The translations under genes were made by a program, and so were the position numbers. 64,000 nt of DNA from Longimicrobiales bacterium (lineage in GTDB: Bacteria > Gemmatimonadota > Gemmatimonadetes > Longimicrobiales > Gaopeijiaceae). The notes below the pieces were generated by a model, which worked only from the letters and a program-made list of their open reading frames with translations, made no database searches and was not told the DNA's origin. Positions within the stretch are counted from its first letter, which is position 1, and every line of letters begins with the position of its first letter. Below, piece by piece: positions 5,318-21,811 of this stretch. The DNA is taken from contig OY282361.1 in NCBI GenBank assembly GCA_958295645.1, forward strand, positions 310,001-374,000. The letters are read 5' to 3'.

Positions 5318-5668
5318 ATGCGTCACAGAAAGAAGGGGCGCGGACTGTCGCGCTCGCCCAGCCACAGAAAAGCGCTCTTGAGGAACTTGGCCGCTTCCTT
5401 GTTTCTTCACGAGCGGATCACCACGACGACGGCCCGGGCGAAGGAGCTCAGGCCGTATGCCGAGCGGCTGGTCACCATGGCCAAGCGGGGCGACCTGCAC
5501 GCGCGCCGGCTGGCGGCTCGGCGCATCGCGGACCGGGACGTGCTGGGCAAGCTGTTCGACGACATCGGCCCCCGCTACGCGGAGCGGCCGGGCGGGTACG
5601 TCCGCATCTTGAAGCTGGGAAACCGCAAAGGCGACGCCGCCGAAATGGCGCTTGTGGAGTTGGTGTGA
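5318..5668 (+). CDS. rplQ: 50S ribosomal protein L17
   Basis: Large-subunit protein of 116 residues beginning [20 protein letters not shown]. The family block [17 protein letters not shown] follows, then a C-terminus ending [12 protein letters not shown]. It is the usual last gene of the alpha operon, and a stem-loop lies just after it. Confidence 0.97.
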
Positions 5669-16788: not shown

Positions 16789-19700
16789 ATGAGCGTCAAC
16801 ACCGGCACCGAGGCGCAACGCGCCTTCGACCTGCGGCCCGACCAGCCGATACGTGTTCCCTTCGAACGCATCTTCGCGGAAGCTGGCACAACCACAGAGA
16901 AGGGCCGCTGGTTCGAGCATCTGTTCATGGCGGTTGCGCGGGAGCTGCCCGACTTCCAAGTGGCGGACATCTGGACGTGGCGGGAGTGGCCCGAGCGCCT
17001 GGAGCGGACGGGGCTTGACGGACGCGACACGGGCATAGACCTCGTTGCGGAGCTGACGAGCGGCAGCTTGGTGGCCGTCCAGTGCAAGTGCTACGACGGC
17101 AGCCACCGCGTTGCCAAGCCGGACGTGGACAGCTTCATCAGCGCCTCCGACGGCGACGTGTTCGATCTCCGATGGGTTGTCTCCACCTGCCCTTGGAACG
17201 CCAACGCCGAGAGCGCGATCAGGAACAAGAAGCCGGAAGTCCGCCGGATCGACTTCCTGGACTATCTGGACCGCACGATTCTTGAACTGGGCAGGCCCAC
17301 CGAGAGGCGCGAGCCGAAGCCGTTGCAGCGCCAAGCCATTGAAGCCGTCTTGGACGGACTGGAGACCCAGGGCAACGACCGCGGCAAGCTGGTCATGGCC
17401 TGCGGCACGGGCAAGACGTTCACGTCCCTGCGGATTGCGGAGCGCTTGGTTCCCGACGACGGACGGATTCTCTTCGCGGCGCCGACGATCTCGCTGGTGT
17501 CGCAGGCCAGGCGGGAGTGGCTGACGCACACCGTCCGACCCATGTCGGCGCTTGTCGTGTGCTCCGACTCCACCGCGGGAGGCAGGGGGGAGCGGCACGA
17601 GGCCGGACCGGACGATCTGGTGTGTCCGGTACTGACGGATCCGTCGAAAGTAGCGGCGCATCTTGCGGGCGACAGCGGAGTCAAAGCGGTGTTCTGCACC
17701 TATCAGTCCCTCGACGTGGTCGTGAGGGCGCAACACGGGCACGACGATCCGCGCTTCGACTTGGCCGTCGCCGACGAAGCGCACCGCACAACGGGCATCG
17801 ACGTGGCCGACCGCAAGGTCAACTTCCAGCACTTTCATCACCGGCTGGACGCGAGCCGGCGCATCTACATGACGGCCACGGAGCGCATCTACAGGGCGAA
17901 GTCCAAGAGCAAGGCGAAGGAGAAGGGGCTGGACGTCGTGGACATGTCGGACTTGGACACGTACGGGCCTCTTCTGCACAAGCTCAAGTTCAAGGACGCG
18001 GTGGCGGCGGGCGAACTGTCGGACTACCGAGTGATCGTGCTGGGCGTCCACGAGAGCCATCTGACGCCGGGCATCCGCAGGTCGCTGGACAGCGCCGCCC
18101 CCAGCGCCAGGGTGGACGAGTCGGATCTGCTCCGGCTCTACGGAACCGCCCTGGCAATGAACGGATACGTGCGCGGCGGACCGGTCGAAGTGCCGAACCG
18201 CTTGCCTCGCACGCTGGCCTTCGCCTCGCGAGTCGTCCGTTCCCAGTGGTTTGCCGACACGCTTTCGACCAACCGCACGTTGAAGGGGCAAATCACACGC
18301 AGGCTGGAGGGCGACGCCCGGGCGCTGGACGTGCAGGCCGTGCACCTGGACGCCCGCAACAGCGCCATCGAACGAGGCGACAAGCTCCGCTGGCTGAACG
18401 ACGCGAAACGCGCCAACGAGTCCCGCATGATCTGCAACGTCCGCCTGTTCACCGAGGGCGTGGACGTGCCGGCGCTGGACGCGGTGTCGTTCCTCGATCC
18501 GCGAACCAGCCAGATCGACATCGTGCAGTCGGTCGGGCGCGTGATGCGGAAGGCCGAAGGCAAGCGGTTCGGCTACATCGTTGTCCCCGTGGCCCTGGCG
18601 GAAGGAGAGGACATCGTCGACAAGCTGGAGAAGCGAGACGACGACTACCGCGCGATCGGGCAGGTCCTTCGGGCGTTGCAGTCCCACGACGAGCGGCTGG
18701 CCGAGGCGACCGGCGACTTCGTGACGGCGCATCAGACGAAGCCCCTGTCGCAGCTCTCGCCGGAAGACCGCGACGAGACGTTCGCGCGCGAACGGCAACG
18801 GGAGTTCGACCTGACGCCCGTGGACGCCGCCAGCATCTTCACGCACATCGGCGCCGCATCCGGCCTGGGCAAGCCCGGCCAGATGACCGCCGAGACGATT
18901 GCCGACGCGGTGAAGCTGGCGGCTGCCTACCTTGCCGCCGACCAGGCGATTCTCGATGCCGCGCGTGATGTCTTGGAACTGCCGGCCGCCGAAGACAAGG
19001 AGACCTCCGTCGTCGCCGCGCTGCTGCTCTGCAACGCCTGTCTGCTGCATAAGCGGCTGAAGTCCGATTCCGAGAGCATGAGGGCCTTGCCGGGACTCGA
19101 CGGGGTTGCTCGCGCCAACGATCCTGTGGAGCGCCTCCGGGCCGCGTGGGAAGTCGTCCTCGAGAGGGACTACGAGCCCGTCTTCCGCCCCCCGCTGGCG
19201 CTTCTGGAGCGGTTCCAGTCTGCCTCTCTGAGGTACAGGGAATCCCCCCCCCCCCCCCCCCGGAATTCTTCCCTACGCGACGACAGAGGACCTTGCGATG
19301 TCGAGGGCCTCGCTCGACCATGCCGACTCACGCCACGACAACATCAAGAAGGCGGTGCAGGTCCTGGCAGAGCGCGCCGAGAGCCTTGCCGACTCGCTCA
19401 ACGAACTGGGTTACGACCACGCGGGGCCGCTGTACCACCGCATTCTCGGAAGCGCGGAGAGCGACGGCGCCTTCTACACGAACAACGTCTCCGCGCTCAT
19501 GTTGGCCGGACTGGCGCTCTCGCCCGACTTGGTGGACTGGTCCGACTACGAGGCGGCGACCAGCCTGCGAATCCTCGACCCTGCGTGCGGCACGGGCACG
19601 CTGCTCATGGCCGCGCTCAAGACGATCAAGGACAGGGGGCTCGAAGGTGGCGCGTTCACGCAGGACACGCTGACCGACGCGCACAAGAAGCTCGTAGAAC

Positions 19701-20046
19701 GATCGATCCACGGCGTGGACATCAACTATCACGCCACCCAGTTCGCCGCGTCCAACCTCACGCTGGGAGCGCCGAGCGTCGACTACGAGGCCATGTCGGT
19801 GCACACGCTCCAGCATGGTCCGCAGCGCGACGGAACGATACGCCTGGGCAGCCTGGAGCTTCTCCGGGACGCGGTGGCCGGCCAGGCGCCCGATCTGTTT
19901 GGGATTGCCAAGACCGCCAGGGTCGTGGAGCGGGGGCGTCCGAGCAAACACGCTCCCGCGCCGGACCTCCGGAAGCAGGACGTCGTCCTGATGAACCCGC
20001 CGTTCACTGCCAACGACAAGCGCGGACGCAAGTACGACAAGACTGA
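16789..20046 (+). CDS. Type ISP-like nuclease-helicase half, frameshifted at the C run
   Basis: Genuine protein runs from the ATG at 16789 to about residue 819. The N-terminal Mrr-like PD-(D/E)xK nuclease has D84 (GIDLVAE) and Q98-C-K100. The superfamily 2 helicase follows with Walker A ACGTGKT (204-210), DEAH 329-332, MTAT at 361-364, and QSVGRVMR near 580. A helical coupler region of about 200 residues ends in LRYRES before the proline run. Beyond the 18 C the frame stays open to 20046 but reads the methylase gene in the wrong frame, so the last 260 or so residues are not expected to fold. COG4889-type features such as EWPER...DTGIDLVAE and VQCK support the family. It starts 15 nt after radC. 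Confidence 0.8.
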   Translation: MSVNTGTEAQRAFDLRPDQPIRVPFERIFAEAGTTTEKGRWFEHLFMAVARELPDFQVADIWTWREWPERLERTGLDGRDTGIDLVAELTSGSLVAVQCKCYDGSHRVAKPDVDSFISASDGDVFDLRWVVSTCPWNANAESAIRNKKPEVRRIDFLDYLDRTILELGRPTERREPKPLQRQAIEAVLDGLETQGNDRGKLVMACGTGKTFTSLRIAERLVPDDGRILFAAPTISLVSQARREWLTHTVRPMSALVVCSDSTAGGRGERHEAGPDDLVCPVLTDPSKVAAHLAGDSGVKAVFCTYQSLDVVVRAQHGHDDPRFDLAVADEAHRTTGIDVADRKVNFQHFHHRLDASRRIYMTATERIYRAKSKSKAKEKGLDVVDMSDLDTYGPLLHKLKFKDAVAAGELSDYRVIVLGVHESHLTPGIRRSLDSAAPSARVDESDLLRLYGTALAMNGYVRGGPVEVPNRLPRTLAFASRVVRSQWFADTLSTNRTLKGQITRRLEGDARALDVQAVHLDARNSAIERGDKLRWLNDAKRANESRMICNVRLFTEGVDVPALDAVSFLDPRTSQIDIVQSVGRVMRKAEGKRFGYIVVPVALAEGEDIVDKLEKRDDDYRAIGQVLRALQSHDERLAEATGDFVTAHQTKPLSQLSPEDRDETFARERQREFDLTPVDAASIFTHIGAASGLGKPGQMTAETIADAVKLAAAYLAADQAILDAARDVLELPAAEDKETSVVAALLLCNACLLHKRLKSDSESMRALPGLDGVARANDPVERLRAAWEVVLERDYEPVFRPPLALLERFQSASLRYRESPPPPPRNSSLRDDRGPCDVEGLARPCRLTPRQHQEGGAGPGRARREPCRLAQRTGLRPRGAAVPPHSRKRGERRRLLHEQRLRAHVGRTGALARLGGLVRLRGGDQPANPRPCVRHGHAAHGRAQDDQGQGARRWRVHAGHADRRAQEARRTIDPRRGHQLSRHPVRRVQPHAGSAERRLRGHVGAHAPAWSAARRNDTPGQPGASPGRGGRPGARSVWDCQDRQGRGAGASEQTRSRAGPPEAGRRPDEPAVHCQRQARTQVRQD
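19244..19261 (+). repeat. 18-nt poly-C run inside the restriction-modification gene
   Basis: Eighteen consecutive C, the longest C run in the window, encodes prolines at the join between the helicase coupler and the methylase. Runs of this kind are classic sites for slipped-strand length change. In the present length the upstream frame reads S-PPPPP-RNSS. With one C fewer it reads S-PPPPP-GILPYATTEDLAMS and continues into the methylase. Confidence 0.9.
19285..19290 (+). promoter_or_regulatory. Ribosome binding site for independent methylase translation
   Basis: AGAGGA at 19285-19290 stands 7 nt before the ATG at 19298, just downstream of the C run. It would allow the methylase half to be made whatever the run length. 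Its use is inferred from position only. Confidence 0.45.
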
Positions 20047-21322
20047 ACTGAAGCGGATGCAGCAGGCGGAAAAGAGGACAAGGGAGGTGGTTGCGACGGC
20101 CGACCCCGAGGGCGGAGCGTCGATCGACTTCAACAGCATTCGGACGTTCTTCACGCCGATGGCCGACGTCTTGCTCAGGACCGACACCGGCGTTCTCGGC
20201 ACGATATTGCCGACCACTGCGTGCACGGGCACATCGGGCGTCGAAGAGCGCAGGTTTCTGGCAAGCCGCTTCCACATCGACGTGATAGTGACGACCCACG
20301 ATCCCAAGCGTCCCAACTTTTCGGAGAACACGGACATTCACGAGACGTTGCTGGTGTGCAGGCGCAAGACCGAGCGGAACGCCGGTGCTCCAACGCTCTT
20401 CGTGTCGCTCGCGCACAAGTGCGACCACCCGTCCGAGATTGCGGAAGTCTGTGATTGGCTGGCAGCGGTGCACGGCCGACGCCCGCACAAGTGGCACTCG
20501 CTCTTTGAATGGCCCGAGGCACGGGTGGCGGCGGGCGACTGGTCGCCTGCGCAGTGGTTCGACGGGGCATTGGCCCTGATCGCTGGCGAGATCGAAGCAC
20601 TGGCGGGGTTGACGCCATTGGGGGAGATGGCGCTGGTGGAGCCGGCGGGGCGAAGGGTGAGAGATGCCTTTCTGAACCCGCGGAAGAACAGGCCGAGACC
20701 CGACTACCCAGTCATGTGGCTCCACCAGACGGGCAAGCGGACGACGATGAGGGCGTCGGTCGATTATGTGACGGAGCCGAAGGCCGGCAAAGGGAGGTAT
20801 GCGCGGAAGCTGTGGCCGAGGGCGAGTCGATTGCTGGTCGCGGCGAAGCTCAACCCCCAGGCCGTTCGAACGGCCTCCATCCTCGTCGACGAGCCGGTGC
20901 TGGGCAACGCTTGGATCCCCGTAACGCCCCTTGGTGACTTGTCGGAGACCGCCGCGAAGGTGCAGATGCGCGTGCAGAAGGCATGGTGCGCCTTCCTGAA
21001 CTCGACGCCGGGCGCAGTTCTGTTCCTGAATCGCCGATCAAAGAAGCTGACCTACCCTGCCTATTCGCTCGATAGCCTACGGTCCCTGCCGTGTCCGGAC
21101 CCCTCGAAGGTGAAAATCGAGCGGCTTGCCACTGCGTGCGACGAACTCCGAGACCGGGAGCTCTTGCCCTGGCCGCAGATGGATCAGTGCCCGGTTCGGG
21201 CGCGGCTGGACGCCGTCGCCGGCGAGACGCTAGGCATTCAGCCCGAGCAAATCGCCAAATGGCGCGGCAAGCTGGTCGCCGAGCCGACGATCTCCAACAA
21301 GGAGCAAACTGTCGGCGAATAG
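19298..21322 (+). CDS. Type ISP-like N6-adenine methylase and target-recognition half
   Basis: Gamma-class adenine-N6 DNA methyltransferase of 674 residues. AdoMet motif I DPACGTG is at 94-100 and catalytic motif IV NPPF at 233-236. YTNN at about 60-63 occupies the usual YTP position. The C-terminal half resembles a target-recognition region (LNSTPGAVLFL...KLTYPAYSLDSLRSLPCPD), which in Type ISP enzymes reads the asymmetric site. The frame is open from 19232, so it can also be the C-terminal half of a fusion with the helicase. The ATG at 19298 has its own AGAGGA. It could act as a stand-alone methylase when the C run is out of frame. Confidence 0.82.
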   Translation: MSRASLDHADSRHDNIKKAVQVLAERAESLADSLNELGYDHAGPLYHRILGSAESDGAFYTNNVSALMLAGLALSPDLVDWSDYEAATSLRILDPACGTGTLLMAALKTIKDRGLEGGAFTQDTLTDAHKKLVERSIHGVDINYHATQFAASNLTLGAPSVDYEAMSVHTLQHGPQRDGTIRLGSLELLRDAVAGQAPDLFGIAKTARVVERGRPSKHAPAPDLRKQDVVLMNPPFTANDKRGRKYDKTELKRMQQAEKRTREVVATADPEGGASIDFNSIRTFFTPMADVLLRTDTGVLGTILPTTACTGTSGVEERRFLASRFHIDVIVTTHDPKRPNFSENTDIHETLLVCRRKTERNAGAPTLFVSLAHKCDHPSEIAEVCDWLAAVHGRRPHKWHSLFEWPEARVAAGDWSPAQWFDGALALIAGEIEALAGLTPLGEMALVEPAGRRVRDAFLNPRKNRPRPDYPVMWLHQTGKRTTMRASVDYVTEPKAGKGRYARKLWPRASRLLVAAKLNPQAVRTASILVDEPVLGNAWIPVTPLGDLSETAAKVQMRVQKAWCAFLNSTPGAVLFLNRRSKKLTYPAYSLDSLRSLPCPDPSKVKIERLATACDELRDRELLPWPQMDQCPVRARLDAVAGETLGIQPEQIAKWRGKLVAEPTISNKEQTVGE

Positions 21323-21790: not shown

Positions 21791-21811
21791 GGGGGGGGGG
21801 GGGGGGGGGGG
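21791..21811 (+). repeat. 21-nt poly-G run
   Basis: Twenty-one consecutive G, about 470 nt after the methylase stop. No recognisable gene crosses it on either strand. It is the longest homopolymer in the window and lies within 2.6 kb of the 18-C run. Confidence 0.9.

Follow-up and report, generated by a model that had tools for sequence, protein, structure and literature searches.

The locus considered here raises the question of why a nuclease-helicase reading frame and a methylase reading frame should meet at a run of cytosines: whether these are two genes, one broken gene, or a single gene that changes in run length could switch on and off. The window, by which we mean the whole 64,000-nucleotide stretch of DNA that was analysed, is 310001-374000 of a single 2.886-Mb contig. 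Within it the gene occupies 16789-21322, starting approximately 16 nt past the stop of a radC-like gene that itself comes after secA (gene names from sequence).

Reading frames on either side of the run

The proposed on/off switch is a run of 18 C on the forward strand at 19244-19261, which is pure and is flanked by AGGGAAT on one side and GGAATTC on the other. As assembled, the ORF that begins at ATG 16789 is out of frame once the run has been crossed and meets a stop at 20046, after 1085 aa, and the frame encoding a methylase and target-recognition domain (TRD) is open from ~19232 to 21322. An earlier note had placed the run at exactly this change from one frame to the other, and its coordinates are confirmed, as is its arithmetic that removing one C or adding two would give a frame of ~1510 residues: with 17 or 20 C there are 1510 or 1511 codons. 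Frame arithmetic across 16789-21322 gives a single open frame of 1508-1511 codons when the run is set to 11, 14, 17 or 20 C, the general rule being a length of 2 modulo 3, and all remaining lengths lead to a stop after 958-1086 codons (1085 for 18 C, 961 for 19 C). The gene has in this respect what is found in homopolymer-tract phase-variable genes, a long pure tract in the coding region with a length that sets the frame.

In the joined frame, third codon positions have a G+C content of 0.86 upstream of the run and 0.83 downstream, and downstream in the frame as assembled the value is 0.45. The joined frame is coding in both halves, because it is only there that third-position G+C stays coding-like, and besides the switch at the C run no stop or frameshift was found in the 4.5 kb of the gene. 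The length of an 18-base homopolymer in an assembly is uncertain by at least one base, and therefore the OFF state of the gene as assembled is not a safe call.

A Type ISP-like chain and its known counterparts

The 5' half (16789-19243, forward strand; aa 1-818, before the run) encodes a nuclease, an SF2 helicase-like ATPase and a probable coupler, the last placed between ATPase and methylase by position and length only. Pfam matches are to Mrr_cat_2 (1.5e-28), ResIII (4.7e-21) and Helicase_C (9e-7), and this half matches the Type ISP enzymes LlaBIII and LlaGI with E values of 3.8e-96 and 4e-78 respectively. The Mrr-family nuclease domain at 16957-17262 (aa 57-158) contains the motif D84...Q98-x-K100, all three residues of which are invariant in a 15-sequence alignment, and the ATPase at 17311-18552 has the motifs GTGKT, DEAH, TAT and QSVGRVMR. 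The 3' half (19262-21322, forward strand) encodes a gamma-class N6-adenine methylase (Pfam N6_Mtase, 2e-8) with a C-terminal target-recognition region; its motifs DPACGTG (19577-19597) and NPPF (19994-20005) can be read directly, and the catalytic motifs of the gene are intact.

The two halves are not equally close to known Type ISP enzymes. Phmmer with the methylase-TRD half gave no hit to LlaGI or LlaBIII, nor was there any significant sequence match to LlaBIII. An AlphaFold model of this half, which is a moderate model with a mean pLDDT of 65, matched the folds of CamA, BpuSI, M.BseCI and BrxX/PglX ahead of that of LlaBIII (E 4.9e-6), and the closest PADLOC profile for the gene is labelled Type IIG. 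The Type ISP identity put forward in the earlier note stands firmly for the nuclease and helicase (LlaBIII at 4e-96 when rounded) and more weakly for the methylase and TRD, where LlaBIII is reached by fold only. A profile search gave the same division, with a 15-member family profile recovering LlaBIII at 6e-144 and LlaGI at 1e-118 on the ATPase side and aligning on the methylase side at motif I only, with 5 bits. In the joined frame the order of nuclease, ATPase, coupler, methylase and TRD is that of a single Type ISP polypeptide, with an Mrr-family nuclease of the D...QxK kind and an SF2 ATPase related to LlaGI and LlaBIII. By its predicted anatomy we would regard the enzyme as Type ISP-like, with strong homology in the nuclease-helicase and a methylase-TRD that appears to be of the right kind but diverged.

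LlaGI and LlaBIII of Lactococcus are Type ISP enzymes in which an Mrr nuclease, SF2 ATPase, coupler, N6-adenine methylase and TRD lie on one chain (PMC4872093, PMC4666363). The window gene shares their domain order and is homologous in the nuclease-ATPase, but its methylase-TRD is beyond clear sequence recognition, and no description of a homopolymer switch in either enzyme was found. In Helicobacter pylori a Type ISP gene, HP0667-HP0669 or JHP0612-JHP0613, contains frameshifts, and HP0669, its methylase part, is active alone (PMC3936762); the frameshifts in strain 26695 are not due to sequence repeats (PMC3936762), so that, unlike what is proposed for the window gene, it has no reversible tract.

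Closer in mechanism are Cj0031 of Campylobacter jejuni and JHP1272 and HP1353-1354 of H. pylori, Type IIG enzymes that are switched by homopolymer length (PMC4889913, PMC3936762). These combine a single-chain restriction-modification (RM) enzyme with a homopolymer switch, as is proposed here, but they have no translocase domain and are found in pathogens, and in H. pylori there is a second tract, which alters specificity. BREX likewise has a large defence methylase, BrxX/PglX, for whose gene a homopolymer tract is mentioned (PMC6326788), but that is a separate multi-gene system, and the Type I hsd and Type III mod genes that switch by simple-repeat length (reviewed in PMC12456177) belong to multi-subunit enzymes. 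Repeat-driven switching is already known for Type I, II/IIG, III and BREX methylases, and the statement in the earlier note that homopolymers drive phase variation in other RM systems agrees with published work on Type IIG (PMC4889913, PMC3936762) and on Types I and III (PMC12456177). That note had also supposed that a Type ISP case would be new, and no report of one was found in the open-access literature, most subscription journals lying outside that search.

Homologues, the linker and other long runs

Homologues of the gene are found in metagenome-assembled genomes (MAGs) of Longimicrobiales, Pseudomonadales, other Gammaproteobacteria, Alphaproteobacteria, Chloroflexi and others, one being named Candidatus Palauibacter. 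Isolate names suggest that many of these are sponge or coral associates, and sponge metagenomes seem to be the main source of the nearest relatives. No viral relatives of the gene were found. The nearest homologue (L037) is in a Longimicrobiales MAG of the same family and another genus (G041), and this sister-genus copy, 91% identical, carries an in-frame C26 at the corresponding junction, within an open frame of 1554 codons. The comparison of run lengths among relatives that the earlier note had called for has in this way revealed a difference of C18 versus C26 between genera. The gene does not sit at the same locus in the two, since neither SecA nor RadC was found next to the sister-genus copies.

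Another genome of the same family (G008) has an unbroken single gene of 1485 aa, with ~50% identity and without the tract, and many further homologues likewise have this domain order in a single uninterrupted gene without a run. The earlier note had envisaged that relatives might show two clean separate genes, and this did not occur: a two-gene layout was rejected as no relative has it, the one apparent exception (G066) being a methylase half that adjoins an unrelated ORF and looks like a truncation. Two Pseudomonadales homologues are split, one (L053, 8415-9738) by a transposase-like insertion very near the corresponding coupler-methylase boundary and the other (L058) by an interruption after aa 488, and no homopolymer was found in either.

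The run sits in an insert of ~37 aa that is lacking in G008 and that, in an alignment of the window gene with 21 others, is confined to the window gene and the sister-genus copy. This insert forms part of a hypervariable linker (19204-19339, forward strand) that leads from the coupler to the methylase. Against the 91%-identical relative dN/dS is 0.13 in the upstream half, 0.19 in the downstream half and 0.80 in the linker (aa 806-850), and the sequence around the run is wholly different in the two genes, whereas the flanking halves are similar. The ratios point to strong purifying selection on both halves, and selection on each side of a tract that differs in length between relatives is again what is seen in homopolymer-tract phase-variable genes. 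The sister genus has a second copy, with ~49% identity, in which an in-frame G24 insert lies in a loop of the methylase region and is absent from every other relative; this insert is independent of the C26 tract. It would seem that the switch arose on more than one occasion, because the two ISP-like copies carry their tracts at different positions, as inserts that other relatives lack.

The run of the window gene is surrounded by a short inverted repeat (19237-19274), AGGGAA at 19237-19242 and TTCCCT at 19269-19274, and in the sister genus (L094, around 5613-5638) a different one, CGTTGAGTA...TACTCAACG, surrounds the run. In a shuffle test p was ~0.07 for the window gene and <0.005 for the sister genus, with no clear enrichment over all tracts. 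That both genera have such repeats beside the C run, though of differing sequence, may be a trace of template switching there. That the tract was brought by a conserved mobile element was considered and rejected, as tract flanks are not one shared sequence and inverted repeats surround only a few.

The 2.89-Mb genome has 17 C/G runs of at least 9, of which 11 are of at least 14. Markov models of the window predict ~0.02 runs of at least 14, and an origin of the run by chance was rejected on this difference. Most of the long runs lie within or next to genes for surface sugars, surface proteins or defence, classes in which phase variation is typical. For tracts other than that of the window gene, several coding assignments are provisional owing to open high-GC antisense frames. 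Among the genes concerned are tandem PMT_2 glycosyltransferase paralogues (L025:5419-12162); their C runs, of 20, 26 and 11, lie close to the N termini, and each is in frame as assembled. In the window genome further tracts lie in two GDSL-type hydrolases, directly upstream of a bacterial sugar transferase, at the start of a surface-protein-like ORF, and in a PDC-M33A defence-candidate ATPase. The only other C/G run above 8 in the window is a G21 (21791-21811) that is probably intergenic, ~470 bp downstream of the ISP-like gene with no convincing ORF across it, and which could affect the expression of a neighbour.

G041 has runs of at least 14 in its two ISP-like genes, in genes for a Type IIG enzyme, a sulfotransferase and a surface repeat protein, and in the orthologue of the PDC-M33A ATPase gene; its PglX gene has a C10. 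The Type IIG-like RM gene of the sister genus (PADLOC E 0) contains an in-frame G22 (L105:4003-4024). The orthologous PDC-M33A genes have 21-base C/G runs with different flanks (L021:7011-7031 and L106:3975-3995); the frame is kept in the window genome and lost in G041, whereas for the ISP-like gene it is the other way round. Runs also occur at the start of ORFs akin to large repeat-containing surface proteins (L108:4056-4070 and L026:7005-7030). Further members of the family have long C/G runs, some of which are at contig ends and may be artefacts, and in several other cases an in-frame tract may be a stretch of poly-Pro or poly-Gly that is tolerated.

Explanations for a frame set by a C run

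The locus is probably one gene for a phase-variable, Type ISP-like, single-chain RM enzyme, with Mrr nuclease, SF2 translocase, coupler, N6-adenine methylase and TRD, in which a dispensable linker holds a hypermutable poly-C contingency tract. The joined coding frame, the selection on both halves, the longer in-frame run elsewhere and the excess of runs in the genome all support this. Slipped-strand mispairing at replication would add or drop C's; lengths of 2 modulo 3 (17, 20) would give the full enzyme of 1510-1511 aa, the ON state, and other lengths would give an out-of-frame tail ending at ~960-1085 aa with loss of methylase and TRD, the OFF state. Restriction and modification would be lost together in OFF cells, because both activities are on one chain, and cells of one population would differ in phage restriction and in the methylation of one motif. 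With switches of this kind there is in principle a hazard, since switching back ON meets unmethylated DNA.

It is quite unlikely that the true length is an in-frame one that does not change, 17 or 20 C for example, with the assembly off by a base and the gene constitutively on. Homopolymers as long as C18 are commonly miscalled, the sister genus has its C26 in frame and purifying selection on the halves is strong, all of which would fit, but such a run explains neither the difference of 18 versus 26 between genera nor the retention of long pure tracts, by a GC-rich genome with few runs of at least 9, in genes for the surface and for defence. Long homopolymers can also cause transcriptional or translational slippage, and polymerase or ribosome might slip on the C run by design to yield full-length and truncated protein whatever the length in the DNA. 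Selection on the joined frame would accord with this, but it is decidedly unlikely, as the sister-genus copy is in frame without need of slippage and neither run length, position nor flanks are conserved as a programmed signal would be; slippage of this kind is compatible with phase variation. That the gene is a pseudogene in decay, interrupted where a run arose by chance, is suggested by the broken frame as assembled, but this is highly improbable and was rejected on the dN/dS of both halves and the absence of other lesions in 4.5 kb, the motifs too being intact.

A further alternative concerns what OFF cells would make. A candidate internal start in the methylase frame (19285-19300, forward strand, read from sequence) consists of AGAGGA at 19285-19290, a 7-nt spacer and ATG 19298, from which out-of-frame cells might still make the methylase-TRD, so that their DNA would stay marked and restriction only would toggle. 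The activity of HP0669, a methylase-specificity part, by itself (PMC3936762) gives a precedent, but the start lies in an insert that is missing from the sister-genus copy, and the signal could be a chance one. As the sister genus does not share this start, we consider the alternative unlikely.

It is similarly unlikely that a restriction-only switch operates within a phase-variable immune repertoire made up of the two ISP-like genes and the Type IIG gene in the sister genus and the PDC-M33A ATPase in both genomes. Were restriction alone to be switched, turning it back on would not cut the cell's own unmarked DNA. The tracts in ISP-like, Type IIG and PDC-M33A genes suggest that these uncultured bacteria bet-hedge their immunity.
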